Below are positions 2,419 to 61,502 of a stretch of 64,000 nt of DNA, one piece after another; position 1 is the first letter of the stretch, and every line of letters begins with the position of its first letter. Made by a program: the position numbers and the translations under genes. Under the pieces are notes generated by a model that saw nothing but the letters and a program-made list of their open reading frames with translations, was not told the DNA's origin and ran no database searches. This DNA is from Candidatus Merdivicinus faecavium (GTDB taxonomy: Bacteria; Bacillota; Clostridia; Oscillospirales; Ruminococcaceae). Location: positions 56,230 to 120,229 of the forward strand of contig DVKD01000015.1 of NCBI GenBank assembly GCA_018716285.1, given 5' to 3'.

Positions 2419-2628
2419 ATGTTCAATCTCTTCCGAAACCGCAGGCTGGAGCGCAACCTCCGTGTCGAAGAAAGCGAGGAGCGCTTTCGCAAGCAGCTTG
2501 ACGAGACGCCGCTTGAAAAGAAGGACATCCCCGCGATGATCATTGCGGCCTTTCTCGTCCTGCTGCCGGCCGTACTCGTGACCTTCGGCCTGATTGTGCT
2601 GCTGATGTATCTTTTTTTCTTCCATTAA
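2419..2628 (+). CDS. Small membrane protein, 69 aa, function unknown
   Basis: Short ORF directly after oppF in the same orientation; hydrophobic C-terminal helix IIAAFLVLLPAVLVTFGLIVLLMYLFFFH. Confidence 0.6.
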   Translation: MFNLFRNRRLERNLRVEESEERFRKQLDETPLEKKDIPAMIIAAFLVLLPAVLVTFGLIVLLMYLFFFH

Positions 2629-2647
2629 CTGCCGTTTTTCGGCGCAA

Positions 2648-2683
2648 AAATCCCCGCGCAGGTGCTGCCCGCGCGGGGATTTC
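2648..2683. terminator. Rho-independent-type hairpin between oppF operon and convergent anti-sigma-like gene
   Basis: AAATCCCCGCGC-loop-GCGCGGGGATTT. Confidence 0.75.
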
Positions 2684-2700
2684 ACTTTTGCCGATACAGT

Positions 2701-3570
2701 TTACAGGGCTGCCGCCAGGAGATCCGCGAGCTCCCCGTCCGCAGGGTAGGCGATCTCCCCAAGGAGGAGAAGCCCATCGTCGGGGTACCAGACGAGCCGG
2801 AAGGAGAGCCCGTTCGGGAGGACGGCGGACAGTTCCGCGGCCGCCGTTCCCTCGGGTATTGTGCCGGAGGGGATGAGGGCCGCCAGCAGCGGGCCCGCAG
2901 AGTCCGGGAGGGCGCTGCCCGCCAATTCGGCGGAGATTCCTTCCCCGTCAAAGCCGTAAAGCGCGCCCAGGGTCATCCCTTCCGCCCCGCCGCTGCAAAG
3001 GAGGAAGGAGAGCTCCTCCTCACTTTGGAGCAGCCGGACGGCCGGCACCTCCGCAAGCGGGAGGTAGGCGTAGACCATCCCGGCCGCTGTTTCTCCCAGA
3101 AGGTCGCCGCGGTCAGCCTCCGCAGGGGATTCCGGCAGGCCGGTTTCCGCTAAGAGGGCCGGGTCCGAAACGACCGTGTAGCGGATGCCGTCCAGCTCGC
3201 AGCCGGTATCCAGTATGGCCGTTTCCAGCCCCACGCCCAGCTTGTTTTCCCGCGCGCTGTCTGACGCGTCTTCCGCACTGCCCATCTGGGCTTCGGCAGC
3301 CGCGGCGGAAGATTCCGCGGCGGAGGACGCCTCCGGCGCTGTCGAATAGGCGGCAGAGCTGCTTGTGCTGCCCGAAGTGTTGGTCTCGACCCCGTTCAGG
3401 CGGACATATATCAGGCCGCCCGCAGCGATGACCATCAGGCAGGCGGCAGCAGAGAGCCAGCGCAGGGCAGTCCGGGCAGGACGCGCCTTTGCGGGGGTAT
3501 AGTCCTCCGCCTCGGTGAGGAAGCGGTCGTCGATCTCTCCGATCGCTTCGAACAGCTTTAAGGATTTCAC
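2701..3570 (-). CDS. Membrane-anchored anti-sigma-factor-like protein
   Basis: Single TM helix after short cytosolic N-terminus; overlaps 3' end of ECF sigma gene. Confidence 0.55.
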   Translation of the reverse strand: MKSLKLFEAIGEIDDRFLTEAEDYTPAKARPARTALRWLSAAACLMVIAAGGLIYVRLNGVETNTSGSTSSSAAYSTAPEASSAAESSAAAAEAQMGSAEDASDSARENKLGVGLETAILDTGCELDGIRYTVVSDPALLAETGLPESPAEADRGDLLGETAAGMVYAYLPLAEVPAVRLLQSEEELSFLLCSGGAEGMTLGALYGFDGEGISAELAGSALPDSAGPLLAALIPSGTIPEGTAAAELSAVLPNGLSFRLVWYPDDGLLLLGEIAYPADGELADLLAAAL

Positions 3571-30820: not shown

Positions 30821-31327
30821 TCACTGCCTTTTCAGCAAACGCTGTTTGAAGGCTCTGATTCTTTGCCCATAACGGCTTGTAAAGATAATACCGCATAAAA
30901 TCATTCCGATTGCGGCGCCTTCGGCAAAGTTCGAGACGGCGTTCAAAACCGCGTGCTGATACAGCCCCGTATGGCGAATCAGACTGGCCGCGAACCAGAA
31001 GACGGCCCCTGCCAGCAACAGCAGGCGCACCCGCCTGGTGTACCGTTCTGTGCCCGTGTTCAGGTATTCTGCCGCTTTTCGGACCGTTTCTTTTGTTTCT
31101 TTATCCATCGTCCCGCTCCTCCTTTCTCCGTCAAGGAGCTCGCGGATATCGACCTCATAGAAATCTGCAAGCCCGATGAGAATATCCAAATCCGGCATAT
31201 TGTTGCCGTTTTCCCATCGTGAAACAGTCCGGGAAGAAACATGGAAATGCTCTGCCAGCTGTTCCTGCGTCAGCCCTTTCTCCCTGCGAAGGCATTTCAG
31301 AAAATTCCCTGTTTTTTGCTGGTCCAT
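30821..31327 (-). CDS. Helix-turn-helix regulator with membrane domain
   Basis: FLKCLRREKGLTQEQLAEHFHVSSRTVSRWENGNNMPD; GGGAGG ribosome-binding site upstream of ATG at 31327. Confidence 0.9.
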   Translation of the reverse strand: MDQQKTGNFLKCLRREKGLTQEQLAEHFHVSSRTVSRWENGNNMPDLDILIGLADFYEVDIRELLDGERRSGTMDKETKETVRKAAEYLNTGTERYTRRVRLLLLAGAVFWFAASLIRHTGLYQHAVLNAVSNFAEGAAIGMILCGIIFTSRYGQRIRAFKQRLLKRQ

Positions 31328-31457
31328 CCGCAATCCTCCCTTCGCAAAGATCATAGCAGAGCCTCGTGAAAAATACCACGACACAAAGCGGGAATTGCCG
31401 CAATTTAGGAGCAGACACGTCATGTCTGCTGGATTTGGATTGGCAAAGTCCCCCAGA

Positions 31458-31654
31458 GCTTCCGCCGGGAAGCCTTTGCGGTTATTATACCATGTCCGCA
31501 AATCCGCAGGGATTTGCAGGGCGGGCGCAGCCGCCCGGGTTTTGCGCCAGCAAAACCGGCATGATACAATGTTCTCAAAGGGAATCCGAAAGGATTCCGC
31601 GGGGAACGGAGTTTCCCACGCTTCCGCCAGGAAGCCTTTGAGGTTATTATACCA
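31458..31654. repeat. Multi-hairpin repeat, locus 1 (partial A - B' - A modules)
   Basis: GCTTCCGCCGGGAAGCCTTTGCGGTTATTATACCATG...CATGATACAATGTTCTCAAAGGGAATCCGAAAGGATTCC...GCTTCCGCCAGGAAGC; same family as 60142-60708. Confidence 0.9.
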
Positions 31655-58267: not shown

Positions 58268-60097
58268 TCAGTCCGCGCCGGCCCCGTATTCCCGGATGCA
58301 GGCGAGGAATTCTTCCCCGTACCGCTCTGCCTTGACCGCGCCGACGCCGGAAACCCGCAGGAATTCCGCCATCGAGCGCGGCTTTTTGGCCGCCATGTCG
58401 GAGAGGGCGGCGTTGGAGAAGATGATGTAGGCCGGGACCCGGGCCTGCTGGGCGAGCCGCGTCCGCAGCGCCTTGAGGGCGGAGAAGAGCCCCGCGTCCG
58501 GCGATGCGGGGAAGGCTAGGGCGGCCGGAGCAGGCTCCCGCTCCTTTTTGACCCGCAAAAAGACCTGCTTCCCCTCAAAAAGGACCTCCCGGGCGGCCGG
58601 GGTCAGCCGCAGGACATGGTATTTCTTCTCGTCGATGAGGAGAAAGCCCTGCTCCGCGAGCGCGCCGATGCACTCGCGGACAAAGCCGCGCCCCTCCTCC
58701 CGCAGCAGGCCGTAGGTCGGCAGCCTGTCGAGCCCGAGCGAGAAAATCCGCTGATCCTTTGAGCCGGACAGGATCCGGCCGTAGAGGGCGGCGCCGACGC
58801 TGTACCCGAGCAGCCGCTCGGTCCGCACGACGCAGGAGAGGATCTTCTGGGCGGGGACGGTGATGTCCAGCAGCTCGTACTCGGAGCGGCAGTTTCCGCA
58901 GTTCCCGCAGGGGGAGTCCTGCTCCTGCCCGAAATAGCGCAGGATGTACTGCCGCAGGCAGCCGGCCGTTTTGCAGTAGCCGGTCATCCGGTCGAGGCGG
59001 GCGAGGTCGCGGCGGAGAAGCTCCTCCCGCTCCTCCGGGCTGAGGCGGTCGTTTTCCCCGGCGTTCCGGATGAGGAAACGGGCGGTCTGGACGTCCCCGG
59101 CCGAATAGAGGAGGATGCAGGAGGCAGGCTCGCCGTCCCGCCCGGCGCGGCCCGCCTCCTGGTAGTAGCTTTCCAGGTCCTTGGGCATGTTGTAGTGGAT
59201 GACGAAGCTCACGTTCGACTTGTCGATGCCCATGCCGAAGGCGTTGGTCGCGGCCATCACCGGCTTGCGGTCGTAGAGGAAATCCTCCTGGTTTGCCTGC
59301 CGCTCCTCGTCCGGCAGGCCGGCGTGGTAGCGGGCGGCGGGGATGCCGTTCTCGTTTAAGAGGGCGCAGACCTTCTCCACATTGGCCCGGGTGGAGCAGT
59401 AGACGATGCCGCTCTGCCCGCGGCGCGCGCGGACAAGGGAGAGGAGGGCGTCGTTTTTGCGCTTGGGGGCGAGCACCTCAAAAAAGAGGTTCGGGCGGTC
59501 GTAGCCGGTGGTGAGGACCGCCGGGTTCTGCAGCGCGAGCAGCCGGATCATATCCTCCCGCACCTGGGCGGTCGCGGTGGCGGTAAAGGCCCCGACCGCC
59601 GGGCGGCGGGGAAGGCTTGCAAGAAAGGGGGCGATCTGCAGGTAGCTCGGCCGGAAGTCCTGCCCCCACTGGGAGACGCAGTGCGCCTCGTCGACGGCGA
59701 CCAGCTGGATGGGCACCCGCCGGCAGAGGGCGGCAAAGCGGCCGGTTTCCAGCCGTTCGGGCGCGACATAGAGGATGCGCAGCTCCCCGCGCTCCGCCCG
59801 GGCGAACACCTCCTGCACCTGAGCGGGCTCGAGGGCGGAGTGGATGCAGGCCGCGGGGACGCCCGCCTCTTTGAGGGCGCTCACTTGGTCCGCCATCAGC
59901 GAGATGAGGGGGGAGATGACGATTGTCATCCCCTTGCGCAGCAGGGCAGGGACCTGGTAGCAGACCGACTTCCCCGCGCCGGTCGGCATGACGCCCAGCG
60001 CGTCCCGCCCGGCGAGAAGGGCGTCGACGAGCTCCTCCTGCCCGGGGCGGAAGGAGCTGTGGCCGAAATATTGCTGCAAGACGGTGTATTTGTCCAA
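58268..60097 (-). CDS. recQ: ATP-dependent DNA helicase RecQ
   Basis: FGHSSFRPGQEELVDALLAGRDALGVMPTGAGKSVCYQVPAL; VDEAHCVSQWGQDFRPSY; zinc domain and HRDC. Confidence 0.96.
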   Translation of the reverse strand: MDKYTVLQQYFGHSSFRPGQEELVDALLAGRDALGVMPTGAGKSVCYQVPALLRKGMTIVISPLISLMADQVSALKEAGVPAACIHSALEPAQVQEVFARAERGELRILYVAPERLETGRFAALCRRVPIQLVAVDEAHCVSQWGQDFRPSYLQIAPFLASLPRRPAVGAFTATATAQVREDMIRLLALQNPAVLTTGYDRPNLFFEVLAPKRKNDALLSLVRARRGQSGIVYCSTRANVEKVCALLNENGIPAARYHAGLPDEERQANQEDFLYDRKPVMAATNAFGMGIDKSNVSFVIHYNMPKDLESYYQEAGRAGRDGEPASCILLYSAGDVQTARFLIRNAGENDRLSPEEREELLRRDLARLDRMTGYCKTAGCLRQYILRYFGQEQDSPCGNCGNCRSEYELLDITVPAQKILSCVVRTERLLGYSVGAALYGRILSGSKDQRIFSLGLDRLPTYGLLREEGRGFVRECIGALAEQGFLLIDEKKYHVLRLTPAAREVLFEGKQVFLRVKKEREPAPAALAFPASPDAGLFSALKALRTRLAQQARVPAYIIFSNAALSDMAAKKPRSMAEFLRVSGVGAVKAERYGEEFLACIREYGAGAD

Positions 60098-60141
60098 GGT
60101 GGCAGCCTCCGTTTCCGGCGGGATCTTCCCTTCCGGTTTTC

Positions 60142-60708
60142 ATGTTCTCAAAGGGAATCCGGAAGGATTCCGAGGGGGCGTTTGCCCCCGCGCTTTCGCC
60201 AGAAAGCCTTTGCGGTTATTATTCTGCGGGCGGAAATCCGGCAGGATTTTCAGGCGCGCGCAGCCGCCTGTGTTTTGCGTGAGCAAAACCGGACGCAGAA
60301 CAATGTTCTCAAAGGGAATCCGAAAGGATTCCGAGGGGGCATTTGCCCCCTGCGCTTTCGCAGAAAGCCTTTGCGGTTATTATTCTGCGGGCGGAAATCC
60401 GGCAGGATTTTCAGGCGCGCGCAGCCGCCTGTGTTTTGCGTGAGCAAAACCGGACGCAGAACAATGTTCTCAAAGGGAATCCGGAAGGATTCCGAGGGGG
60501 CGTTTGCCCCCGCGCTTTCGCCAGAAAGCCTTTGCGGTTATTATACCATGGCCGCAAATCCGCAGGATTTGAAGGCGGGCTTGCCCGCCGCAGTTTTGCG
60601 TCAGCAAAACCGGGCATGATACAATGTTCTCAAAGGGAATCCGGAAGGATTCCGAGGGGGCGTTTGCCCCCGCGCTTTCGCCAGAAAGCCTTTGCGGTTA
60701 TTATACCA
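60142..60708. repeat. Multi-hairpin tandem repeat array (A-B-A-B-A-B'-A; period about 160-161 bp)
   Basis: ATGTTCTCAAAGGGAATCC starts at 60142, 60303, 60464, 60624; several short hairpins per unit. Confidence 0.95.
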
Positions 60709-60767
60709 GATTTTTGAGAAAAAGGGAAGAGCCCCGCCCGGAGGGACGGAGCTCTCGCCCGGCTGCC

Positions 60768-61502
60768 TTACGAAAGGGAAGCTTCTTCCGCGACCCGGAT
60801 CGCCTCCTCACGGGAGAGGTCTCCGATGAGGTAGTACTGACAGCGGCCGTCGTGCCAGAGCAGGATGGTGGAGCCCTCCTCCGCGATGCAGACCGCCTCC
60901 TGCCCGTCCTTCAGGGTGAGGCGCTCGGCCGCCGCGTCCTCGATGCCGGCGTAGCTCACGAAGATGGAATCCGGCTGGGTCACCGCGAGGGAAAAGGTGC
61001 GTTCGCCGTTTCGGAAGCAGTAGGTGCGCGCGGCGTCTGCTTCCTCCCCGGTGCCCTCCGCGCCGAACAGGTGGGAGAAGGCGGCGGGCCCCGTCTCATC
61101 CGGCGCAAACCCGTCCGGCAGCCAGCCGAATTCCACCTCCCCGACCGGCTGGGAGTTGAGACGGAAGGGGTAGTAGATCATGATGCTGCCGGCGCCGTCC
61201 TCCGCTGTAAACAGGCTGAGGTTCCACTGGGCAAGCGACTCGACCGCCCCGGCCTGGAGGGCGGTAAAGCCGGCGGCTGAGAGGGCGAAGAGCACCCAGA
61301 CAGCCGCGCGGGAGAGCCCCCGCCGGAGCGCGGCGGCGCGGCGGGTGCGGAGCAGACGGCGTTCAAGCTGCGGGGGGAGCGGTTCGGCGGGCGTTTCCCC
61401 GGCGATCTCCCGGGTGAGCTCGGCTGCCTCCGCGCGGTCGAGCTCGGCAAAAAAGCGGGAAAGCTCCCGGCTTTCCGGGTCGGGGGCATGGCGCTTGTTC
61501 AT
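60768..61502 (-). CDS. Anti-sigma-factor-like (DUF4367-type) membrane protein
   Basis: Overlaps 3' end of sigma-like ORF; single TM; ectodomain ending in SREEAIRVAEEASLS. Confidence 0.6.
   Translation of the reverse strand: MNKRHAPDPESRELSRFFAELDRAEAAELTREIAGETPAEPLPPQLERRLLRTRRAAALRRGLSRAAVWVLFALSAAGFTALQAGAVESLAQWNLSLFTAEDGAGSIMIYYPFRLNSQPVGEVEFGWLPDGFAPDETGPAAFSHLFGAEGTGEEADAARTYCFRNGERTFSLAVTQPDSIFVSYAGIEDAAAERLTLKDGQEAVCIAEEGSTILLWHDGRCQYYLIGDLSREEAIRVAEEASLS

Follow-up and report, generated by a model that had tools for sequence, protein, structure and literature searches.

A dispersed multi-hairpin repeat of Clostridia that appears to lie directly behind the −10 boxes of native promoters

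The repeat array next to recQ of Candidatus Merdivicinus faecavium belongs to a dispersed repeat family, of which it is one copy. Judged from sequence, the members of the family are apparently placed in 5′ leaders, directly behind native promoters and in one orientation, at nearly all loci. This arrangement suggests a mobile-looking element homing on promoters. It is probably a non-autonomous mobile repeat, which prefers promoter −10 boxes, moves in the form of folded single-stranded DNA or by way of it, and accumulates at the −10 box kept at its edge. The observations behind this reading concern the structure of the element, its copy number and orientation, the −35 and −10 sequences at its junction, the intact promoters of element-free relatives, and the strand bias of its hairpin loops.

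The array occupies positions 60142-60704 of the window, which is the whole 64,000-nucleotide stretch of DNA that was analysed, and consists of four A and three B modules in the order A-B-A-B-A-B′-A (Table 1). The same order and A modules starting at 60142, 60303, 60464 and 60624 had been reported in a preliminary description, and both match the sequence exactly. Every module is composed of three hairpins set on one closing stem, the B modules being built to the same three-hairpin design as A. The segments x (TTATTATANCAT) and x′ (ATGATACAATGTTCTCA) of the array are nearly complementary to each other, so that x′ is able to close either neighbour, B by pairing with the x to its left or A by pairing with the x to its right. 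The x variants TTCTGCG, TTCCGCG, and TTCC are matched by the x′ variants CGCAGAA, CGCGGAA, and GGAA. The type of closing stem found in B′ is the commonest one elsewhere in the genome. Open reading frames run through the array by chance, and none of them was recognised as a known protein. The window contains a second copy of the element, and the XRE-type regulator gene downstream of it has the same relative orientation as recQ has to the array.

Table 1 Features of the array next to recQ and of the second element copy in the window.
Feature	Position	Strand	Remark
Module A, copy 1	60142..60222	+	Three hairpins, closing stem CTCAAAG/CTTTGCG, terminal TTATTAT
Module B, copy 1	60222..60300	+	Closing stem TTCTGCG/CGCAGAA
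Module A, copy 2	60303..60383	+	Model R1 match at 60297-60390
Module B, copy 2	60383..60461	+	
Module A, copy 3	60464..60544	+	
Module B′	60544..60623	+	Closing stem ACCATG/CATGATAC
Module A, copy 4	60624..60704	+	Promoter-proximal
Extended −10 box TGGTATAAT	60700..60708	-	Presumed recQ promoter; boundary of unique DNA and array, faces recQ
−35-like hexamer TTCCCT	60723..60728	-	Weak; 17-bp spacing, 3/6 to TTGACA
recQ	58268..60097	-	Downstream of array; TTG start 60097, GGAGG 60106-60110
Second element copy, B + A	31482..31650	+	
Degenerate A	about 31440-31481		Ahead of second copy
−10 box of second copy	31646-31654	-	
XRE-type regulator gene	30821..31327	-	Downstream of second copy

The folding energy of the array is −282 kcal/mol, compared with −206 ± 7 kcal/mol in shuffled sequences (z = −10.6), which confirms the hairpins and closing stems as they had been described. 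Single modules fold with z values of −2.8 to −4.4. A set of 51 elements, arrays or solo copies, drawn from 12 genomes has 3.94 perfect hairpins of at least 6 bp per element, versus 0.28 in dinucleotide shuffles. In a sequence-only alignment, 94.9% of cells are paired, and seven pairs have double-sided changes, compared with 2.8 in shuffles; alignment A3, derived from the covariance model, mixes strands and was excluded. The preliminary description had made its observation depend on stems being conserved across more copies, and the observation withstood this test. The stems show compensatory changes. The constant repeats with unique spacers of CRISPR arrays are absent, as the A and B units in the window both repeat. 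The trait is also absent in the genome G059, the constant-length private segments of which are alike within an array.

Copy counts are based on pattern, BLAST, and covariance-model searches. The DNA search of the 2.66-Mb draft genome identified 15 places, and the genome-wide search with a covariance model of module A, which had been proposed together with the initial observation, found dispersed copies with about 17 good A modules. Several copies sit at contig ends, the places where repeats interrupt assemblies. The element is present in four of the seven genomes of the genus, including three sister species. In named Clostridia MAGs, from rabbit, chicken, and sheep samples among others, a degenerate pattern matched at nine loci. 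Most of the corresponding genomes and a few others were then searched, and many have several copies. Dozens are found in G059, where the shorter motif TATAATAACCTCA alone has 26 exact matches. The spread is patchy, with the exact end motif occurring in 3 of the 396 genomes of the order, in a test so strict that it misses G059. Nine pattern matches in viral contigs had none of the element architecture and were taken as chance.

The architecture of the element is kept between genomes together with its ends, ACAATGTTCTCA on one side of A and TGAGGTTATTATANCA on the other. The bases just inside the ends covary (AAAG/CTTT, AGC/GCT, and GGCC/GGCC). The hairpins have no evident common sequence between genomes (L061, L056, L054, and L137 were compared), and their number ranges from one to four. 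Imperfect 17-bp inverted ends flank A only; one of them consists largely of the target −10, and the B end has no conserved terminus. In G059, B is reduced to one hairpin, with a period of about 90, or replaced by a segment S of constant length (57-60 nt), which forms A-S-A-S arrays (L283-L302, for example L291 at 2529-3200 of the minus strand). The closing stem of S is conserved and covarying, and its interior is private to each locus, with an identity of 0.91 within arrays and a core identity between arrays of 0.47, versus 0.46 when shuffled. A search of that genome found the private interiors only in their own arrays. Solo B modules without A are present at L174 and L176 (G004:C6 and G005:C74). 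In both species, the module lies in the 5′ leader of the same orthologous gene, with a TGTTATAAT box about 40 bp upstream of it. In the mini forms of genome G430 (L127, L128, and L305-L309), the inverse of x comes after x itself (TATAATAACCGC-CTC-GCGGTTATTATACC), and the −10 segment is a near-perfect palindrome.

On the minus strand, the conserved end has the sequence TGnTATAATAACCTCA; it consists of an extended −10 box (TGnTATAAT) with a plausible start behind it, and reads toward the neighbouring gene. Since the edge of the array carries the −10, the −35 must fall in the unique flanking DNA. The best agreement with TTGACA in 45 unique flanks is found at a spacer of 17, where the mean is 3.11 of 6 over a background of about 1.5, and the −35 summary score is 3.64 compared with 2.46 ± 0.14 in shuffled flanks, none of 2000 shuffles reaching it. 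TGn is present in 40 of these 45 flanks. An independent set of 31 new flanks has its peak of 2.74 at the same spacer, again with 0 of 2000 shuffles. The gene faced by the −10 is co-oriented at 39 of the 40 scorable loci of the first set, as counted from longest-ORF calls, with ambiguous cases decided by eye and a few loci being mutual orthologues; genes on the other side of the element are about half and half, without orientation preference. The exceptions are L164/L010, which is clear, in the first set and L294 in the G059 set, whereas L136 is unscorable. The −10 of recQ is perfect and its −35 is weak; a native −10 was seen at the equivalent junction of five other loci. The presumed recQ −35 overlaps the T-tract of a G+C-rich terminator-like hairpin with a T-rich tail (60722-60757), which belongs to the upstream gene (60768-61502, minus strand). 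The placement of the promoters implies that the leader would be transcribed with the downstream gene.

At five loci (L168, L157, L162, L169, and L167), sister species that lack the element have an intact promoter −10. The G006 allele of L168, with nothing inserted, is TATTGTACCACATTTT and reads ...TCCT-TATTGTACCACATTTTG. At L157, three of the species represented by G006, G005, G004, and G003 carry TTATTATA(C/T)CA, and the fourth has a related −10. The element-free L162 of G004 has kept both the −35 (TTGTCA versus TTGCCA) and the −10, and the promoter is also intact at the element-free L162 of G006. L169 and L167 of G006 are element-free with the −10 kept. The presence of the −10 at element-free orthologous sites indicates that the promoter is that of the host gene, with the element placed directly downstream of the −10. 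A second, eroded −10 segment is located on the gene side of the element at L157 and L168, and the distance from the gene-side ATACCAT of L157 to a nearby GATT anchor is the same as in G006. Relative to the element-free G006, an eroded segment of about 10 bp, TATTATANCA, is present on both sides of the element at these loci. It may be a target duplication of about 10 bp, which is seen at these two loci only and is unreadable at L162, L167, and L169. The element-free alleles could be precise deletions instead of never-occupied sites. At L311, L312, and L313 of G432, the promoter is followed by AACCTCAAAG and then by a mere hairpin fragment before the gene; these loci are apparently scars of deleted elements.

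The element might instead be a MITE of an ordinary DDE transposon, with TATAAT within its terminal inverted repeats and a promoter location that results from selection against other insertions. The imperfect inverted ends GATACAATGTTCTCAAA and GGTATAATAACCTCAAA would fit such an origin, and MITEs that carry promoters are known (PMC10969869, PMC4853749). However, the −35 is part of unrelated flanks and is exactly spaced, and relatives free of the element have the −10 as well; the promoter is therefore a property of the target and not of the element. Moreover, the multi-hairpin interior without sequence common to genomes is unlike an internal-deletion derivative of one transposon. A pattern search of the window's genome (G000) detected neither a related autonomous transposon nor an autonomous copy with the same ends, the hosts being draft MAGs. 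We consider the MITE explanation quite unlikely. The near matches to TATAATAACCTCAAA in the genome are all in elements, decayed elements, one apparently native promoter, or chance sites.

For the downstream gene, the plus strand of the array is the template, opposite to the mRNA. The tetraloop motifs d(cGNNAg), d(cGNABg), d(cCNNGg), and d(gCNNGc), which are stable in DNA (Nakano 2002, as cited in PMC8373063), account for 53 of 84 tetraloops, deduplicated per genome, on the plus strand versus 7 of 84 on the minus strand. RNA-stable motifs number 24 on the plus strand and 1 on the minus strand. Each of the 45 GNNA loops is closed by a C-G pair. RNA loops of the GNRA type would need a purine at the third position, and the ratio of purines to pyrimidines of 23:22 reveals no purine preference. 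Half of the GNNA loops also fit GNRA, so that plus-strand RNA could be the folded molecule too. Triloops of the type cGNAg, unusually stable in DNA (Yoshizawa 1997, as cited in PMC7432603), occur 17 times on the plus and 6 times on the minus strand. The plus-strand stems have 15 G-T mismatches versus 5 A-C. As far as loop and stem sequences can tell, the data favour folded plus-strand single-stranded DNA rather than an mRNA structure.

The strand preference bears on the suggestion, raised in the preliminary description, that the array is a structured leader. Such a 5′ leader would act in cis as a riboswitch, attenuator, or mRNA stabiliser, and would have been duplicated because it is useful. 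The suggestion holds with respect to location, as the elements have a 5′ placement and fixed orientation behind real promoters, and their strong, conserved folding and retention at some orthologous loci of both G000 and G006 are compatible with a function in cis. However, the downstream genes are functionally mixed, including recQ, an XRE regulator, M20 peptidase, ruvC, proB, glycerol kinase, and others, with no function in common, and in the mRNA strand no loop or junction sequence was seen to be conserved. The loop preference for the strand opposite to the mRNA, the unrelated genes, and the presence that varies between sister species argue against a riboswitch-type leader, and we regard this explanation as unlikely. 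Rfam gave no credible match at E≤1 around the array and none at the gathering threshold in eight G059 loci.

The alternative first suggested was a REP/BIME-like repeat, which in its explicit form would be mobilised by a RAYT (Y1 HUH) transposase. The element does belong to a dispersed repeat family, and its short folded repeats, loops of the single-stranded DNA type, and clustered arrays are those expected; contig C59, which holds copy L162, also contains one IS200-like gene. However, the RAYT-type transposase domain PF01797, for which a search had been recommended, was not found in the element-bearing genomes G427, G428, G432, G059, G006, and G004, several of which are rich in elements. The copies are located at 5′ rather than 3′ gene ends in a fixed orientation, and neighbouring modules share one orientation instead of forming inverted pairs. 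The module anatomy differs from the REP signature of a 5′ tetranucleotide GTAG and one imperfect hairpin. The explanation is already weakened, and we hold it to be very improbable. The searches made found no mobiliser or transposase for the element. The IS200-like Y1 transposase gene on C59 (G000:C59:17021-17377), near the contig end, is the sole one in the window's genome.

In the mobile-repeat reading that we favour, the unit would be B-x′-A, about 150-160 bp long and non-autonomous, and would spread between gene promoters. Its target would be the extended −10 box, with insertion directly downstream of a native TGnTATAATA. The −35 and −10 of the gene would both be retained, and the 5′ leader would now start with the element. 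Because the promoter-proximal edge keeps a −10, insertions could pile up into arrays. Head-to-tail arrays may arise by further insertion at this edge or by tandem duplication across the repeated x segments. Selection most likely acts on a folded form of the single-stranded DNA opposite to the mRNA, with DNA-stable loops on its hairpins, and the central x′ may hold the fold by pairing with the −10-like x on either side. We infer movement from the dispersed copies, the presence or absence of the element between species, and the apparently decayed scars L312 and L313. Transposition would presumably be the mode of movement, with folded single-stranded DNA as the form that moves; an effect on expression would be equally presumptive.

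A more specific mechanism can be proposed tentatively, although we consider it unlikely. The single-stranded element may insert into the melted −10 of the open complex, guided by pairing of x′ (CATGATACAATG) with the target strand, and arrays may grow at the restored −10 through the action of a structure-reading recombinase. The x′ segment is a near-complement of the target TATTATACCATG. A recombinase that reads structure rather than sequence would let the hairpins drift freely.

If the favoured reading is true, gut Clostridia have a small-repeat family that targets the core of promoters yet leaves the promoters intact. The long folded leaders, placed on many genes at once, would amount to a genome-wide change of 5′ leaders. 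The element would be a clean natural example of a structure that is conserved while its sequence is not. Its loops would obey DNA and not RNA stability rules, and it would allow a test of whether a recombinase acts on folded single-stranded DNA. In the part of the literature that was covered, no description of the element was found, nor any paper on hairpin intergenic repeats of Faecalibacterium or on promoter-targeting MITEs.

Several known systems resemble the element in part. Elements of the IS200/IS605 type (HUH) and integron attC sites are folded single-stranded DNA recognised by structure. A sequence-specific target is used, and IS608 pairs element bases with its target. The structures of attC are conserved without sequence, and cassettes accumulate next to a promoter. 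In contrast, the present element has no correlated Y1 gene and no ORF in its unit, and it appears to target the promoter −10 itself, at many loci. The bcr1 repeat of Bacillus cereus is a structured dispersed repeat of about 155 bp without protein; it has another host and sequence, and is set alongside by description only. REP, BIME, and REPIN sequences with RAYT are likewise hairpin repeats in clustered intergenic arrays, whereas the present element combines 5′ sites and a single orientation with three-hairpin modules and the lack of Y1 in several hosts. The nearest known relative in kind is the Correia-type small repeat upstream of genes. Correia elements (NEMIS) of Neisseria are dispersed non-coding repeats of about 150-200 bp upstream of genes, the ends of which contain a −10-like TATA and the effects of which on transcription have been tested (PMC10969869, PMC4853749), and one copy is located directly downstream of the mtrCDE promoter (PMC10969869). 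The likeness lies in the small dispersed repeat upstream of genes and in the −10-like ends. However, Correia elements share sequence and bring their own promoters, whereas the hairpins of the present element share architecture but not sequence between genomes, and the promoter is native. The element is set apart from the Correia type by the abutted native −10, the sequence-free conservation of multiple hairpins, and the loops of DNA type.
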